From a virus, in the IMG/VR virus record IMGVR_UViG_3300020205_000137, positions 1 to 24,353 of that record: a stretch of 24,353 bases of DNA, one strand, 5' to 3'. Under the pieces are notes generated by a model. That model was given only the letters and a program-made list of their open reading frames with translations. It was not told the DNA's origin and ran no database searches. The position numbers and the translations under genes were made by a program. This document shows positions 11,070 through 21,966 of the stretch, piece after piece. How positions within the stretch are numbered: the first letter of the stretch is position 1; each line of letters starts with the position of its first letter.

Positions 11070-11245
11070 GCGTATGCGCAGGCCACCAAAAGCGCCAGCC
11101 ACAGCACGCCAAGGATGGCAATAAAAAGCCCATAAAAAAAGCGCCTGAGAAGGCGCTTCAAGATTGATGTTGGAAAAGCATGAGTAATGCGAACAGGGCA
11201 GTCACGGCCCTGATTGCAATTGCCATATTTGGCGCAGCAGTTCAT
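11057..11245 (-). CDS. 62-aa Cys-rich small membrane protein
   Basis: The start ATG at 11245 has AAGGAG about six bases upstream and overlaps the preceding TGA (ATGA). The N-terminus is Cys-rich (MNCCAKYGNCNQGRDCPVR, with CNQGRDCPVR reminiscent of small phage proteins I have seen), followed by a basic segment (LKRLLRR) and one membrane helix (about 37-60, FYGLFIAILGVLWLALLVAC). The basic residues before the helix suggest the Cys-rich part stays in the cytoplasm. The TGA at 11057-11059 lies inside the 3' end of the convergent endolysin gene. Function is unknown; membrane location and position suggest a host-interaction or exclusion gene. Confidence 0.68.
   Translation of the reverse strand: MNCCAKYGNCNQGRDCPVRITHAFPTSILKRLLRRFFYGLFIAILGVLWLALLVACAYAYAN
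11134..11158 (-). terminator. intrinsic terminator-like hairpin for leftward transcription
   Basis: AAGCGCCT at 11139-11146 pairs perfectly with AGGCGCTT at 11151-11158 around a four-base loop. Read on the minus strand, the stem is followed by seven or more T (complement of 11134-11140). It lies inside the coding sequence of the small leftward membrane protein, about 75 bases before its stop, and faces the oncoming endolysin transcript. On the plus strand no T-run follows, so it should act mainly leftward. Confidence 0.65.
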
Positions 11246-12785: not shown

Positions 12786-13024
12786 CAGTCAGTCCCTCCA
12801 GCATTGGTGATTGCATCCTCGAACATGTCAGCAATGGCAGGAATACCGGCCAGCTCGATCGGCACGCCATTGGTCAGCAGACTGACCAAGTCCTCTTGAC
12901 CAGCGACCTCAATGTCGAATCGGGTCTGGGCAGCATGCCGAATGGCTTGTGCCTGGTTGCCAGCGCGAATCAGACGATGGCGATTGGTCTCCACATCGGT
13001 GACCACATAAATGCGTGTGCTCAT
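12785..13024 (-). CDS. 79-aa protein of unknown function
   Basis: ATG 13024 overlaps the VRR-NUC stop (ATGA). It begins with a strand-helix unit (STRIYVVTDVETNRHRLIRAGNQAQAIRHAA), then DIEVAGQEDLVSLL, and ends with an acidic helix. The pattern of RIYVV-D then RA-N-AQA-RH resembles short phage proteins found near DNA-metabolism genes. No enzyme or metal motif is visible. Its place between a nuclease and a ribbon-helix-helix regulator suggests an accessory role in the early operon. Confidence 0.7.
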   Translation of the reverse strand: MSTRIYVVTDVETNRHRLIRAGNQAQAIRHAAQTRFDIEVAGQEDLVSLLTNGVPIELAGIPAIADMFEDAITNAGGTD

Positions 13025-13386
13025 AAATTGTCCTTGTGTTGGTTGAAAAAGGCCTGAAGTTTGCCCTTGGCATCATCAGCACCTTTTCCCACTATACAAC
13101 AGAATCTCACACTTTCAAGATATGCAATCCAGTCTTTCTGCTCGGCACTCAGGCTTCCATCCTTGCTGCGCTTCATCTCCACCCAAAGACCCCAGGCAGG
13201 AATGAATAGATCAGGAACGCCACTGCTCACGCCTTCAGCCTTCAAGCGGCCAGCGGTGGCAGGACTGCGAGCGCCACCATTGGGAATGGCAAAGATGCGC
13301 ACGCCTGGCCAAGTCTGGCGAAACCAGCGCACCAGCTCGCGCTGCTCCTCATGCTCGGTGGGGATACGGTCGGTCAGAATGGGCAT
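13021..13386 (-). CDS. VRR-NUC domain nuclease
   Basis: The product is 121 aa from ATG 13386, with GGAG about six bases upstream; a start at 13398 would add four residues. It matches the VRR-NUC family (PF08774) of the PD-(D/E)XK superfamily: an E-rich first helix (EHEEQRELVRWF), then IPNGGAR, GVSSGVPDLFIP with D59, WVEMKR with E70 and K72, and LSAEQKDW. Stand-alone phage members are structure-specific nucleases, with Holliday-junction or nicked-DNA cleavage reported for some relatives. Next to an SF2 helicase and a recombination ATPase it probably trims or resolves recombination intermediates. It overlaps the gene before by 13 bases. Confidence 0.9.
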   Translation of the reverse strand: MPILTDRIPTEHEEQRELVRWFRQTWPGVRIFAIPNGGARSPATAGRLKAEGVSSGVPDLFIPAWGLWVEMKRSKDGSLSAEQKDWIAYLESVRFCCIVGKGADDAKGKLQAFFNQHKDNL

Positions 13387-13568
13387 TCTGGCTCCCACTT
13401 AGGACAGGCATCCACCTCGGCAGCGAACTCGGCTGGCGGTGTCATAAAGAACTCGGTGCACAGGCCATCGTTGCCGTACATCTCGCAGGTGTGGCAGCAC
13501 TTCGGTGGGCCAGCCTTGATCCACTCACGGTAATCAACCAAGAATTGTGGCTCTGGTGGTCGGATCAT
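13374..13568 (-). CDS. 64-aa Cys-rich (probable zinc-binding) protein
   Basis: ATG 13568 overlaps the previous stop (ATGA) and has AAGGGG upstream; an earlier start would lie in the 50-aa gene. Residues 24-37 hold CCHTC and GLC, and C55 and C62 come near the end (DACPKWEPECPF), giving six cysteines and one or two possible metal sites. No family is recognised. It lies between another Cys-rich microprotein and the VRR-NUC gene and overlaps the latter, so it is likely to be made with the nuclease and could be a cofactor. Confidence 0.66.
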   Translation of the reverse strand: MIRPPEPQFLVDYREWIKAGPPKCCHTCEMYGNDGLCTEFFMTPPAEFAAEVDACPKWEPECPF

Positions 13569-17018: not shown

Positions 17019-17423
17019 TTACTCCTTAGGGATAATTTTGAAAGATGGGCGGCCAGGCTTGGCCGTGATTGCAGCCGCAAGCGGCTTGGTGATGGACTCG
17101 TCTGCTGCCTTCCAGATCGCCATGTTTATCTCAGGCTTCCAGCGAAACAACTTGGCCAAGTGATCGGTCAGACCAAACTCAGCGGCGAGCTCTTGCACTT
17201 TGTCTCCGTCGACTTTTCGGTCGATGCGGCCAACGATCTTGATCTCGTATCGACCAGGCTCGACGGTCTCTGTGCCTTCAAGGTTTTCGGCAATGGTTGC
17301 CAACTTCTTGATGTGGTCTTCAATATCGCGTCGATCCGCTGTCGCATCTTCTTCCTGTGCTTTTGCTTCCAGCCACATGCTGGCCAACTCATTCATGTCA
17401 TTGGGCAATACCTTGGCGGTCAT
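17019..17423 (-). CDS. conserved phage protein next to recombination ATPase
   Basis: The product is 134 aa, with ATG 17423 overlapping the ATPase stop (ATGA). The N-terminal half is a charged helix (MWLEAKAQEEDATADRRDIE) leading into IKKLATIAENLEGTETVEPG, then strands RYEIKIVGRIDRKVD, a helical part, and WKPEINMAIWKAADES near the end with a KPGRPSFKII tail. Proteins with this AKAQEE-A-R-IE start and RIDRKVD strand regularly lie between the AAA ATPase and DUF669 genes in phages, but no activity is known to me. A helper of annealing or an inhibitor of host nuclease is possible. Confidence 0.75.
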   Translation of the reverse strand: MTAKVLPNDMNELASMWLEAKAQEEDATADRRDIEDHIKKLATIAENLEGTETVEPGRYEIKIVGRIDRKVDGDKVQELAAEFGLTDHLAKLFRWKPEINMAIWKAADESITKPLAAAITAKPGRPSFKIIPKE

Positions 17424-18097
17424 GCTTTGCCCCCGATCTTGGCAATGATTGCACCCAGATCAGGCGCTTCCCAAGCCTCCAACTTGCCAGAGCGATCCTT
17501 GGCCAACCACAGGCCATCAGAGTCGCACATCAAAGCACGCTGGGTCACGCCTTCGGCATCACGCTCGACACGCAGCGCCAGCACTTCATCAAAGAAGTAA
17601 GGCAGGCCTTGTGTCAGGCTCTTGCCTGGCATGCCTGGGTTGTAGAGCATCTTGCCCATCTCATCGGTTGACTTCTCCAGCTTGGCCGACATGAAGACAT
17701 GCTTGCCAGGCAGATCGCGGAAGGCGCGAATCAGCTCCTGCATGGTGCTGTTCATCTCGCCATAAGCAGCGCGGCCATCCTTGGACTTCTTCATCTCATG
17801 CGACAGCACCACCTCAGCCACCTCGCTGATCGAGTCCAGCGCGACCGATTGAAACCCAGCTGCCTCCTTGCTGTCGCGGCACCATGTAAATGCCTCGCGC
17901 AAGTCGTCCATGCTGGCGATTTCAATGTAGGGCAGATCAGCGTCCTGAATGGACAACAAACCACCCTCAGCTGACAGCACGATCACATTCGGCAAGGTCT
18001 TGACCAAGGTTGTCTTACCTGCACCGGCTTGGCCGTACACCAGCAACTTCACTCCATTGGCAGACAAGCTGCCTGTTGACTTTAAATTGATAGCCAT
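17420..18097 (-). CDS. Sak4-like RecA-fold ATPase (AAA_24), recombination
   Basis: The product is 225 aa and the first gene of the leftward operon, with AAGGAG before ATG 18097. Walker A is GQAGAGKTT at 22-30 and Walker B is SVALDS at 84-89, followed by EVVLSHEMKKSKDGRAAYGE and a strand HVFMSAKLEK. This is the phage AAA_24 (PF13479) family that includes Sak4, a minimal RecA/Rad51-like core that promotes annealing of single strands, working with a phage SSB. The size is that of Sak4 without the DNA-binding additions of RecA. Downstream DUF669, Cas4-like exonuclease and helicase complete a recombination set. Confidence 0.87.
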   Translation of the reverse strand: MAINLKSTGSLSANGVKLLVYGQAGAGKTTLVKTLPNVIVLSAEGGLLSIQDADLPYIEIASMDDLREAFTWCRDSKEAAGFQSVALDSISEVAEVVLSHEMKKSKDGRAAYGEMNSTMQELIRAFRDLPGKHVFMSAKLEKSTDEMGKMLYNPGMPGKSLTQGLPYFFDEVLALRVERDAEGVTQRALMCDSDGLWLAKDRSGKLEAWEAPDLGAIIAKIGGKA

Positions 18098-18116
18098 GTG
18101 GCTCTCCTTTTTTTTG

Positions 18117-18145
18117 CACCTCCGTCTGGGAATCAGTTCGAGGTG
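18117..18145. promoter_or_regulatory. inverted repeat in leader of leftward operon
   Basis: CACCTC at 18117-18122 and GAGGTG at 18140-18145 are perfect inverted repeats spaced by 17 bases, between the leftward promoter and the first leftward gene. It could be an operator for the HTH or ribbon-helix-helix protein, or a weak leader hairpin. Arms are only six bases, so chance is possible. Confidence 0.35.
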
Positions 18146-18149
18146 TGGC

Positions 18150-18177
18150 TAGACTTTAACTCAAAATATGGTAAAGT
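18150..18177 (+). promoter_or_regulatory. rightward promoter candidate (PR-like)
   Basis: The -35 candidate TAGACT (18150-18155, four of six matches) and the -10 TAAAGT (18172-18177, four of six) are 16 bases apart. Transcription would start near 18184 and read the HTH gene whose SD is at 18207-18211. Its -10 shares a base with the leftward -35, so the two promoters cannot be used at once. Confidence 0.5.
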
Positions 18178-18182
18178 GTCAA
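18153..18182 (-). promoter_or_regulatory. leftward early promoter candidate (PL-like)
   Basis: On the minus strand a perfect -35 TTGACA (complement of 18177-18182) is followed 18 bases later by TAAAGT (complement of 18153-18158), or 17 bases later by TTAAAG. Transcription would start near 18146 and read the Sak4-like ATPase and the whole leftward operon. The -10 boxes of the two opposing promoters form the inverted repeat ACTTTA / TAAAGT. Confidence 0.6.
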
Positions 18183-18218
18183 CACCAAACGCAAATAAAT
18201 TTTAAAAGGAGTAAAAAA

Positions 18219-18401
18219 ATGCCTGAACTTGAAAAACTCAGAGCCATGCTCGCAGACCGAAATCTGCAAGTTGTTGCTCGTGAAGCTGGTGTCCATCCCA
18301 ATGCGCTGTACCGCCTAAAAGAAGGCAAGACAGAGCCGAAGTACGAAACTGTGCGCAGGCTACTTGCTTACTTTGACAGGCAGGCGGTGACACATGGCTG
18401 A
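18219..18401 (+). CDS. Cro-sized helix-turn-helix regulator
   Basis: The product is 60 aa from ATG 18219, with AGGAG at 18207-18211; an ATG at 18168 lies within the promoter and lacks an SD. Residues 16-36 (LQVVAREAGVHPNALYRLK) form a helix-turn-helix of the Cro/CI (XRE) class, then EGKTEP and a helix KYETVRRLLAYF. It is the first rightward gene beside a divergent promoter pair, the usual place for an early repressor of the opposite transcript. No partner CI-type repressor is in the window. It overlaps the primase-helicase gene by eight bases. Confidence 0.82.
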   Translation: MPELEKLRAMLADRNLQVVAREAGVHPNALYRLKEGKTEPKYETVRRLLAYFDRQAVTHG

Positions 18402-20445
18402 CCTCTCAAAAGTACTTGGTGGCCCTTGGGCACCACCACCAGAAAAGCTCGTCGCACCACCAGAGACGCAACTCATTGACGCAATGCGTGCGGCAGGGCT
18501 TGAGCCACCAGAGGAAATCTACTTCGATGGCAAGATTCACAGATTCCGATCAGGCACAAAAGGATCGCCTGGCCACGGTGACAAGCCAGGCTGGTATCTG
18601 GTGTTTGGTGATGGCATCCCAGCAGGTCGGTTTGGCTGCTGGCGAGCAGGCATGGAAATCACATGGCGAGCTGATGTAGGGCGAAAGCTGACTGAATTTG
18701 AGGAAATGGCACACGCCAGACGAATCAATGAGTCAAAAGTCCTGCGCGAAGCAGCTCAAGAGCGCCAGCATCAAGTCGCAAGCGAGACAGTCGAGAAAAT
18801 ATGGCTCAGTGGTGTGGCGGCTCACCCTGATCACCCTTACCTCAAACGCAAAGGCATCCAAACCCACGGTGTGCGCACCACAGGCGATGGCCGATTGATG
18901 GTGCCACTCTACGATGCAGACGGAACACTCAGCACACTGCAATACATCGATGAGGATGGCGGCAAGCTCTATCACCCAGGCGGTCAGACTGGTGGAAAAT
19001 TCTGGATGGTAGGCTCACTTGATGAGCCTGGCACACTGTACGTTGCCGAGGGCTTCGCAACAGCATCCACCATCCATGAAACCACCAACAGGCCAGTCGT
19101 GGTGGCCTATAGCGCCAGCAATCTAGTGCCGGTCACTGGCACACTCAGGCAAATGTATGGAGCAACTCAAGACATCGTGATCGTCGCAGACCATGACCAA
19201 AGCGGTGTCGGCCAACGATACGCAGAGCAAGCCAGCGCCAAATTCGGTGCACGCATGGTTATGCCTCCGATACTCGGTGATGCCAACGATTATGCACAGG
19301 CTGGCCACGACCTCGCAGGCCTGCTAGTCCAGCAGACTGGCACAGCGGTGATCGACAAGCTCAAAGTCGTATTCGGTGACCAACTCGGCAGCGACTACGA
19401 AGCACCAGACGAGCTGGTCGAAGGCCTCATGACCATCGGCAGCTCAGTGGTGGTCTACGGTGACAGCAACTCAGGCAAAACATTTTGGGCGCTCTCAGTG
19501 GCCACGGCCATTGCAACTGGCACCGACTGCTACGGCAGGAAGACTGATGCAGGCTTGGTGATCTATCTGGCCAGCGAAGCCCCTGCCAGCATTCGATCAC
19601 GCATGCAGGCCATCAAAAAGTACCACGGCTGCGACCTTGAGAACTTGGCAATGGTGCCAGTCCCGATGAACTTCTACAACGGTGACCAAGATGCCCACGA
19701 TGTGATTGAGCTGGTCAGGGCCATTGAGCAAATCAAAGGAAGACCAGTGCGCCTGATCATCGGTGACACGCTGGCCAGAATGAGCGCAGGAGCCAACGAA
19801 AACAGCGGTGAGGACATGGGGCCAGTCATGGCCAGATTCGATCAGGTGGCCACCGCCACAGGCGCAGCCCTGATGATCATCCACCACAATGGCAAAGACG
19901 CAGCCAAAGGCGCACGTGGCTGGTCAGGCATCCGAGCACACATCGACACCGAAATCGAAGTAATCGAAAAAGAAGGCATCCGCATGGTCAACGTGACCAA
20001 ACAACGCGAACTTCCAAGCAAGGGCGAGGCGATCTACTTCAAACTGGAAGTGGTTGAGATGGGAATCTCAAAGTTCGGTGGCCCTGCAACAACCTGCGTG
20101 GCCATCCCAGACGATGAAGCGAATATCACAAAACCCCACAAAAAACCTACAAAGCATGACGAGAATGTCAGGACAGTCGAGCGTGCATGGTGGTCATCTG
20201 GTGCAGAAGAACGTGATGGTTTACCCTACCTAAGCAGGTCAGCACTGCGTGATCTGCTGGTCAAAGATGGCATGGCCGAGCGCACCGCAAAGAACAAAAC
20301 AGAAGCATCCAGACCAGAAGGAATCATCGCGCAACTGCTCAATGCAGGCACGCTGGAAACCTTCGAGCATGGCTGGATTTTCATTAACGAGGTTCAAGTC
20401 AGCGCAATGATGATGCAGAAAAGTGAGGCAAAGAATCGCCCCTAA
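18394..20445 (+). CDS. TOPRIM primase / RecA-type helicase, bifunctional
   Basis: The product is 683 aa. Residues about 40-150 are an N-terminal domain without a zinc finger. A TOPRIM domain follows, with YVAEGFATA (E219) and VIVADHDQSG (D266, D268). A RepA/DnaB-like ATPase domain starts near 340: GDSNSGKTF at 356-364 (Walker A), YLASEAPASIRSRM near 391-404, LIIGDTLARM at 454-463 (Walker B) and IIHHNGKDA near 495-503. The C-terminus (about 600-683) resembles a winged helix. Such proteins prime and unwind at the phage origin. The stop codon is part of the first iteron of the downstream origin-like region, which suggests they work together. Confidence 0.92.
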   Translation: MADLSKVLGGPWAPPPEKLVAPPETQLIDAMRAAGLEPPEEIYFDGKIHRFRSGTKGSPGHGDKPGWYLVFGDGIPAGRFGCWRAGMEITWRADVGRKLTEFEEMAHARRINESKVLREAAQERQHQVASETVEKIWLSGVAAHPDHPYLKRKGIQTHGVRTTGDGRLMVPLYDADGTLSTLQYIDEDGGKLYHPGGQTGGKFWMVGSLDEPGTLYVAEGFATASTIHETTNRPVVVAYSASNLVPVTGTLRQMYGATQDIVIVADHDQSGVGQRYAEQASAKFGARMVMPPILGDANDYAQAGHDLAGLLVQQTGTAVIDKLKVVFGDQLGSDYEAPDELVEGLMTIGSSVVVYGDSNSGKTFWALSVATAIATGTDCYGRKTDAGLVIYLASEAPASIRSRMQAIKKYHGCDLENLAMVPVPMNFYNGDQDAHDVIELVRAIEQIKGRPVRLIIGDTLARMSAGANENSGEDMGPVMARFDQVATATGAALMIIHHNGKDAAKGARGWSGIRAHIDTEIEVIEKEGIRMVNVTKQRELPSKGEAIYFKLEVVEMGISKFGGPATTCVAIPDDEANITKPHKKPTKHDENVRTVERAWWSSGAEERDGLPYLSRSALRDLLVKDGMAERTAKNKTEASRPEGIIAQLLNAGTLETFEHGWIFINEVQVSAMMMQKSEAKNRP

Positions 20446-20605: not shown

Positions 20606-20788
20606 ATGACAAAACAAAGAGAAACCCCAAACTTTGCAACATGGCAACATGACACGCTAGCCAGATTCGCAACCGAGTGCTACATCCGACTCCAAGATGA
20701 GCAGGCCGCGAACGAGCAACTCAGGCTCGATTTAAAAGATGCCATGAAGCTAGCAAGAATTGAAAACATGAAGGACAATCAGGCATGA
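20606..20788 (+). CDS. 60-aa small phage protein
   Basis: It starts at ATG 20606, with only a weak SD (TGTGAG), and its TGA overlaps the methyltransferase ATG (ATGA). It is a helical, charged protein: TPNFATWQHDTLARFATECY near 7-26, then a coiled-coil-like section with DEQAANEQLRLDLKDAMKLA. Proteins with the LPNF-TW start and a following coiled coil are frequent as short genes in phage early regions; function is unknown. Being placed just after the origin it could be an accessory replication factor. Confidence 0.7.
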   Translation: MTKQRETPNFATWQHDTLARFATECYIRLQDEQAANEQLRLDLKDAMKLARIENMKDNQA

Positions 20789-21966
20789 CCACAAAATCAC
20801 ACAATCCCGCAGACAAAGTCGAGCGATGGAAAATTGAGAAGCTGGTGCCTTATGCGCGCAACGCCAGAACGCACAGTGATGAGCAGGTCGGTCAGATCGC
20901 TGCCAGCATCAAAGAGTGGGGTTGGACAACACCGATCTTGGTGGATGAGGATGGCAGCATCATTGCCGGTCATGGCCGAACACTGGCCGCACAGCGCCTG
21001 CAAATGACCGAAGTTCCTGTCATGGTGGCCAAAGGCTGGTCAGATGCCAAGAAACGAGCCTACGTGCTGGCCGACAACAAACTGGCCATGAACGCAGGCT
21101 GGGACAATGAAATGCTGGCGCTTGAGCTTGGCGAGATCGGTGATCTTGGCTTTGACCTCGACCTGACTGGCTTCACAGCCGATGAGATCGCAGCTCTGAC
21201 ACCTGAGCAGATCGAGCCTGGCCTGACCGATGAGGACGAAGTTCCTGAGCTGCCTGAGCAGCCGGTCACTGTGCTTGGCGATGTTTGGGTGCTGGGAAAG
21301 CATCGCTTGATGTGTGGAAGCAGCACTGTCTTGCATGACATTGAAAAACTGATGAATGGCGTTTCTCCAGACTGCATTCATACAGACCCGCCTTATGGAA
21401 TGAATGCAGTCAGCAAGTCGTCAGTTTTAAAAAAGAATTACAAGATTGATATTCTTGGCGATGACACGCCAGATGTTGCCAAGGATGCTTTCCGCTTGAT
21501 TTACGGAATGTGGCCAGATGCAAAGCAGATCTGGTGGGGCGCGAATTACTACTGCTCCGTCTTGCCCGACAGCGAATGTTGGCTGGTGTGGGATAAGAAC
21601 AATGGACAATCAGATCAAACCGACTGCGAACTGGCTTGGGCAAATTTTCGCAGCGTTGTTCGGCAGTTCACGCTTGCGTCAGAAAAAACGAATCGCGTTC
21701 ATCCAACCCAGAAGCCTGTGGCGCTGATGGAATGGATTTTGAAGCGGTTTAATTTGTCGGTGAAAACCGTTGCTGACTTTTTTGGTGGATCTGGTTCGAC
21801 ATTGATTGCAGCAGAAAAACATGGCGCTCAAGCCTTCATCATGGAGTTCGATCCGAGGTTTGTTGATGTCATCATCAAGCGCTGGCAGGACTTCACAGGC
21901 AAAATCGCAGTTCACGCAGAAACCGGAAAACCTTTCGCGGAGGTAAAAAATGGCAACCAAAACTGA
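20785..21966 (+). CDS. ParB-like domain fused to DNA methyltransferase
   Basis: The product is 393 aa. Residues 15-85 are a ParB/Srx-type domain (KLVPYARNARTHSDEQV, then IKEWGWTTPILVDEDG and IIAGHGRTLAAQRL). Residues about 165-375 are an N6_N4 methyltransferase (PF01555): DPPYG at 201-205 (catalytic motif IV), HPTQKP at 306-311, and DFFGGSGST at 331-339 (SAM motif I). Motif IV before motif I indicates the beta class, which usually methylates adenine N6 or cytosine N4. The fusion is common in phages and likely protects phage DNA from restriction. The stretch between about 285 and 305 looks shorter than usual for such proteins, from memory. It overlaps the small terminase by 17 bases. Confidence 0.92.
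   Translation: MTTKSHNPADKVERWKIEKLVPYARNARTHSDEQVGQIAASIKEWGWTTPILVDEDGSIIAGHGRTLAAQRLQMTEVPVMVAKGWSDAKKRAYVLADNKLAMNAGWDNEMLALELGEIGDLGFDLDLTGFTADEIAALTPEQIEPGLTDEDEVPELPEQPVTVLGDVWVLGKHRLMCGSSTVLHDIEKLMNGVSPDCIHTDPPYGMNAVSKSSVLKKNYKIDILGDDTPDVAKDAFRLIYGMWPDAKQIWWGANYYCSVLPDSECWLVWDKNNGQSDQTDCELAWANFRSVVRQFTLASEKTNRVHPTQKPVALMEWILKRFNLSVKTVADFFGGSGSTLIAAEKHGAQAFIMEFDPRFVDVIIKRWQDFTGKIAVHAETGKPFAEVKNGNQN

Follow-up and report, generated by a model that had tools for sequence, protein, structure and literature searches.

Overlapping divergent promoters predicted at a conserved, probable early control site of a group of water-dwelling phages, with a Cro-like regulator gene and a leader-RNA hairpin

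In phage lambda, Cro turns down both PL and PR, and P2 and 186 have face-to-face (convergent) promoters. In pLS20, the overlapping divergent promoters Pc and Pr, together with the regulator RcoLS20, make a real switch (PMC4207663). Five tested bidirectional promoters of E. coli showed no competition at basal strength, and competed only when one direction was strongly activated (PMC12825309). Here, we compare with these systems a short intergenic region from a virus record in which two predicted promoters interpenetrate. A literature search, with subscription papers outside its coverage, returned no account of this region in these phages.

The window, i.e. the whole stretch of DNA that was analysed, is the virus record IMGVR_UViG_3300020205_000137 (24,353 bases). 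A 121-base gap (18098-18218) lies between a Sak4-like gene on its left and an HTH gene on its right, with the following features around it:

17420-18097, minus strand: Sak4-like ssDNA annealing protein, encoded first in the leftward operon (phrog_124, E 5e-57)
18104-18109, minus strand: Shine-Dalgarno sequence AAGGAG of the Sak4 gene, with an A-rich linker before it (from the sequence; GGAG conserved in the leader alignment)
18205-18211, plus strand: Shine-Dalgarno sequence AAAGGAG of the HTH gene (from the sequence)
18219-18401, plus strand: 60-aa Cro-like HTH protein (type A), first gene of the rightward operon (HTH_3, E 5e-7, over the cut-off; phrog_18104 transcriptional regulator, E 2e-17)
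18394-20445, plus strand: primase/helicase, second gene of the rightward operon (phrog_2249, E 1e-51; AAA_25; Toprim_3)
11131-11158, minus strand: intrinsic-type terminator sequence GCGCC-TTCTCA-GGCGC plus seven T, at the likely end of the leftward operon (from the sequence; fold -17.3 kcal/mol, z -2.2)

Beyond Sak4, the leftward block encodes DUF7173 and DUF669 proteins together with a Cas4-type exonuclease and a helicase; the hairpin with its seven T likely is the terminator of this operon. Past the HTH and primase genes, the rightward block continues with a ParB-like/methyltransferase protein and then the terminase subunits. This gene content agrees with a first-pass annotation of the window, which had assigned recombination to the left and replication/packaging to the right. 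In the circular relative MW202867 (34,522 bp, with P22-like portal and coat), the annotated genes likewise form two blocks that diverge from the gap.

A few observations on the surrounding genes and records may be added. Positions 20785-21966 encode a single protein that fuses a ParB-like N-terminal domain with an N6/N4 DNA methyltransferase. One leftward-block gene of the circular relative (MW202867.1 7321-7743, locus L239) carries the annotation 'sigma-70'; as the window protein at the equivalent place (13021-13398, beside the helicase) matches phrog_824 and a Holliday-junction resolvase family, this label looks doubtful. Two records with the same locus, L001 (60,673 bp) and L097 (80,527 bp), are about twice as long as the usual 35 kb and represent either larger relatives or chimeric assemblies. 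A prophage setting was considered for the locus L232 from a Methylomonas MAG and rejected, its contig being without an integrase.

Within the gap, the elements relevant to transcription are these:

18177-18182, minus strand: leftward -35 TTGACA (from the sequence; belongs to the best-scoring promoter of the window)
18153-18158, minus strand: leftward -10 TAAAGT, spacer 18, predicted start at about 18146
18150-18155, plus strand: rightward -35 TAGACT, weak in the window (from the sequence)
18172-18177, plus strand: rightward -10 TAAAGT, spacer 16, predicted start at about 18184
18176-18185, no strand: palindrome GTGT-CA-ACAC, candidate HTH operator over the leftward -35 and the end of the rightward -10 (single copy in the window)
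18117-18145, minus strand: hairpin CACCUC-GAA-CUG-AUUCC-CAG-ACG-GAGGUG, predicted to open the leftward mRNA at its 5' end (covariation; fold z -2.8)

Both promoters together span 33 bases (18150-18182), exactly where the first-pass annotation had positioned two overlapping promoters with these hexamers. Each -35 indeed overlaps the other's -10, as had been claimed, though by just three bases (rightward -35 with leftward -10) and one base (leftward -35 with rightward -10), and the two -10 boxes form the proposed inverted repeat, ACTTTA-N13-TAAAGT. The description of the pair as 'face-to-face' has to be revised, since transcription from the predicted starts (18146 on the minus and 18184 on the plus strand) heads outward: the core elements of two outward promoters lie on common DNA, and the transcripts do not run towards each other. 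The promoters are thus overlapping and divergent, a geometry that would admit one RNA polymerase at a time. When promoters were scored across the window, the leftward one ranked as the top sigma70-like site in all 24 kb and exceeded shuffles of its own region (p 0-0.02). The rightward promoter, judged from the window alone, did not rise above its own shuffles (score 6.0, p ~0.3). A plain consensus scan of 15-22 kb found promoter-like sites without excess (2 versus 3.5 expected) and was therefore left out as evidence. The window by itself backs the predicted leftward promoter only, and it is the relatives that argue for both.

Relative loci were gathered by scans with Sak4 and primase, giving 101 distinct regions upstream of the Sak4 start, 97 of them with a recognisable HTH gene; at a promoter-core identity of 80%, these 97 formed 34 clusters, which are related to each other and only partly independent. 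In 29 of the 34 clusters, the leftward -10 (TAnnnT on the minus strand) is found at offset 16 from the inner hairpin stem, and four more have it at offset 15-18. The rightward -10 (TAnnnT on the plus strand) sits at +35 to +37 from the hairpin anchor in 28 clusters and at +25 in 4; counted from the leftward -10, the distance is 19-21 bp in 29 clusters, with 4 others at 9 bp, so that the two -10 boxes are neither shared nor nested. Information per position amounts to 1.81, 2.0, 0.14, 1.03, 0.61 and 2.0 bits for the leftward and to 2.0, 2.0, 0.11, 0.44, 1.32 and 2.0 bits for the rightward -10. In both hexamers, T, A and the last T reach 1.8-2.0 bits and the third base only about 0.1. Near-fixed bases 1, 2 and 6 with a free third base are the known signature of a -10 element, and such a contrast within one hexamer would be hard to get from shared ancestry alone.

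The -35 elements are kept in most cassette types as well (types refer to the HTH gene, see below). The leftward -35 of types A, B, D and E reads TTGACA or TTGCAC/T at a constant offset, and the rightward -35 is TTGACT in the type A relative L100 and in phages 1N2-2, PB15 and XX1924. Across these four types and five named phage genomes, the leftward -35 lies at +4 to +6 from the rightward -10, and the rightward -35 at -3 to -6 from the leftward -10. When the best promoter of each strand was picked independently of the other strand, types A, B, D and E nearly always returned the same offset, the type D locus L055 being the exception. In type B, a perfect 9-bp inverted repeat places identical promoters on both strands. 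Type C departs from the common layout and has an indistinct leftward -35; in its subtype C1 (L020, L026, L033, L115, L116, L117 and relatives), only 3 bp separate the -10 boxes, which make up a near-perfect palindrome (e.g. ATTCTA-ACG-TAGAAT, or ATTATA-GCG-TATGAT in L033), so that a rightward -35 would sit in hairpin DNA. The five named phage genomes that share the geometry include four cultured phages (Idiomarinaceae, Salicola, Alteromonas) and a metagenomic one; their leftward -35 is TTGACA, TTGACT or TTTACA, and several have two strong promoters, as in 1N2-2 (right TTGACT-17-TATGAT, left TTGACA-17-TAGATT). The leftward promoter outscores the rightward one in type A, most of type D and four of the five named genomes, and the two are about equal in type B and 1N2-2, bearing in mind that promoter scores are a poor guide to strength outside well-characterised hosts. 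Compared over this interval in relatives, as the first-pass annotation had suggested, both promoters are thus kept by position and -10 signature. Poor hexamer conservation beside conserved genes, which it had named as grounds for abandoning its reading, was not seen: the -10 pattern is retained, and inner bases and neighbouring sequence vary.

We think it rather probable that a two-operon phage has its master early promoter, a divergent one, at this site, that polymerase competition sets the balance between left and right, and that a Cro-like protein feeds back on it. Two interpenetrating sigma70-type promoters would drive outward transcription from this master control site, the left one into the Sak4/exonuclease/helicase recombination operon, the right one into HTH, primase, methyltransferase, terminase and onward. 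RNA polymerase would bind in one orientation at a time, and each round of initiation would serve one operon. As a product of the right promoter, the HTH protein would build up and bind across the overlap, probably near the leftward -35 and the rightward -10, where the palindrome at 18176-18185 may be its site, and one or both promoters would be turned down. The leftward mRNA would begin at the hairpin base, and the hairpin probably shields this 5' end and leaves the ribosome site accessible. Acting in this way, the site would set timing and balance in lytic growth, with no choice between life cycles: a timer in which the left promoter fires first and is then lowered by the HTH protein. The higher leftward scores fit this order. 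By analogy, overlapping promoters in nature may lack the strength for competition as long as neither is activated (PMC12825309). If the proposed working is true, one 33-bp site runs the whole phage genome, a simpler design than that of lambda, and polymerase orientation plus a single small repressor balance recombination against replication.

The first-pass annotation had gone further and called the region a 'decision switch', at which polymerase exclusion alone would render recombination and replication/packaging mutually exclusive programmes. That the promoter cores interpenetrate is in keeping with a bistable device, as are the identical promoters of the type B repeat and the precedent of pLS20, where overlapping divergent promoters act as a switch given unequal strengths and a regulator that affects the two differently (PMC4207663). 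The part of the claim that stands is the geometry, which fits a single polymerase; mutual exclusion, however, is not automatic, the tested E. coli bidirectional promoters having shown no competition at basal strength (PMC12825309). Both operons serve, and are required in, lytic growth, and only one regulator gene was found, with no second repressor. Besides, 10-13 related records of up to 60 kb, some of them possibly incomplete, contained no tyrosine or serine integrase, no S24-type repressor and no serine recombinase (no match to PF00589, PF00717 or PF00239). With none of these genes found, nothing points to a second life cycle that could be chosen. A lysis/lysogeny-like decision is therefore unsupported, 'decision switch' exceeds the evidence, and we judge bistability through exclusion alone to be unlikely.

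A further possibility, which we find slightly harder to uphold, is that of the two promoters just the leftward one exists, with the inverted repeat as an operator for the HTH protein and the rightward start lying elsewhere. The weak rightward match of the window would be explained in this manner, and the palindromes are indeed located on the inverted repeat. This account is at odds, however, with the retention of TAnnnT in 33 cluster representatives, in which the inner bases are free, and with the strong rightward promoters of the isolates 1N2-2, PB15 and XX1924 (TTGACT-17-TATGAT, TAGTAT or TATTGT).

At least four sequence types of the HTH gene are found, A (that of the window), B, C and D, together with one single E. 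The type D protein is a P22_Cro (PF14549; E 5e-20, 71.5 bits against a cut-off of 30.2) and matches the solved P22 and N15 Cro, whereas type A of the window stays below the Pfam cut-off for P22_Cro and matches HTH_3 instead. Gapped pairwise identities of the core were uninformative and were dropped because gaps masked differences; nearest-neighbour tests on anchored segments were used in their place. In these tests, HTH type was predicted to 95-99% by the 20 bp that follow the rightward -10, to 72-95% by the bases between the -10 boxes and to 15-43% by the hairpin, with the largest class making up 34%. In 114 locus pairs, the hairpin is the same and Sak4 more than 90% identical, yet the HTH type differs. 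Since HTH type tracks the right promoter part and not the hairpin, the right part of the promoter and the HTH gene appear to behave as a cassette exchanged between phages, with the hairpin staying with the left arm; the exchange joint would thus lie inside or next to the promoter. Coevolution of repressor and operator within the cassette is likely, although plain physical linkage without binding could also account for the association, given that the right segment adjoins the HTH gene. L140 is a counter-example: its HTH is of type C, but its right segment resembles that of types A and D, so that the candidate operator differs in sequence and the HTH type stays the same. The palindrome at the leftward -35 was also considered as a type-specific operator and rejected: types A and D share TGTCAACA despite differing HTH proteins, and L140 breaks the pattern.

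A Cro-like gene and cassette exchange recall lambdoid immunity regions, and one may ask whether the phage is temperate, with an unrecognised prophage repressor, the HTH protein as its Cro and the site as a reduced immunity region. CGphi29, for instance, forms turbid plaques, and its authors left a temperate lifestyle open (PMC6518143). We nevertheless regard this as very unlikely: the lambda-type combination of a prophage repressor gene and an integrase was not found in the 10-13 related records, where the searches for integrases and S24 repressors described above came back empty and HTH_3 matched at most once per record.

Staying with the master early promoter, we offer as a doubtful speculation that phages without prophage repressor or integrase carry exchangeable specificity cassettes, each an overlap promoter with its matching Cro-like repressor, and so form immunity groups without lysogeny. 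If true, co-infecting relatives with the same cassette would silence one another's early promoters, whereas relatives with unlike cassettes would not. The natural cassette series, in which a common left arm is joined to at least four types of HTH gene, provides ready swaps for tests of promoter/repressor coevolution.

To the left of the promoters, the repeat CACCTC/GAGGTG (18117-18122 and 18140-18145), correctly noted in the first-pass annotation, forms the outer stem of the hairpin. Across relatives, stem letters are swapped pairwise (CACCUC/GAGGUG, CACCCA/UGGGUG, CACCAC/GUGGUG, CUGCGC/GCGCAG), and a 3x3 purine-rich internal loop is retained, the first position of which shows non-canonical covariation (G.G in 19 sequences, A.A in 6). 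Because MAFFT misaligned hairpins with a six-base loop, pairs were counted in a hand-partitioned alignment of 28 sequences, with the distant L232 and L233, which misfit the partition, scored as failures: 234 of 252 cells were paired, versus 166 +/- 5 (maximum 183) in shuffles permuting the 3' letters among sequences. Judged by this pattern, the repeat is a leader-RNA hairpin, neither an operator nor a protein site. That it might be a double-stranded DNA site for a dimeric regulator, as an inverted repeat adjoining promoters could suggest, is hardly credible, for a DNA site would preserve the stem letters, which here are replaced pairwise with the internal loop kept. In most relatives, the stem base is 7 nt from the leftward -10, so the leftward mRNA should start with the hairpin. 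In L114, the hairpin and its ribosome site are followed by an extra ORF of ~50 aa before Sak4 begins; the hairpin thus belongs to the transcript 5' end and not to Sak4. Of 199 regex matches to the hairpin in the genomes, 197 fall at this leader, and Rfam has no covariance-model match at 18117-18145, even at E 5. Its likeliest role would be 5'-end protection of the leftward mRNA together with an open ribosome site, and we regard it as an undescribed, well-supported RNA element.

Compared with pLS20, the locus likewise has two divergent promoters at one place, apparently open to one polymerase at a time, and a regulator gene transcribed from one of the two. In pLS20, the activator/repressor is a tetramer, the DNA is looped and a peptide serves as signal (PMC4207663), whereas the phage site has a single small HTH protein and nothing that suggests a second operator, the candidate palindrome occurring once in the window. 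With the bidirectional promoters of Warman and Grainger, it has in common a pseudo-symmetrical core, divergent transcription and, presumably, steric exclusion; those promoters, however, have shared or nested -10 elements and starts 10, 18 or 23 bp apart (PMC12825309), in contrast to the separate -10s and the predicted starts ~38 bp apart (~28 in type C1) of the phage site. The small Cro proteins of the telomere phages PY54 and N15 similarly act on few operators, and the type D HTH matches N15 gp39, but those phages possess a prophage repressor and a divergent cI/cro pair (PMC4488713). The likeness to lambda PL/PR lies in a Cro-like first gene of the right operon and in recombination on the left and replication on the right and, as in lambdoid immunity-region mosaics, the regulator seems to be exchanged together with its control DNA. 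Unlike lambda, the phage has one site rather than separate OL and OR, its promoters overlap, and no CI was found. To judge from the compared genomes, this is a real, conserved site, whose arrangement is of a known type and whose variant is new.
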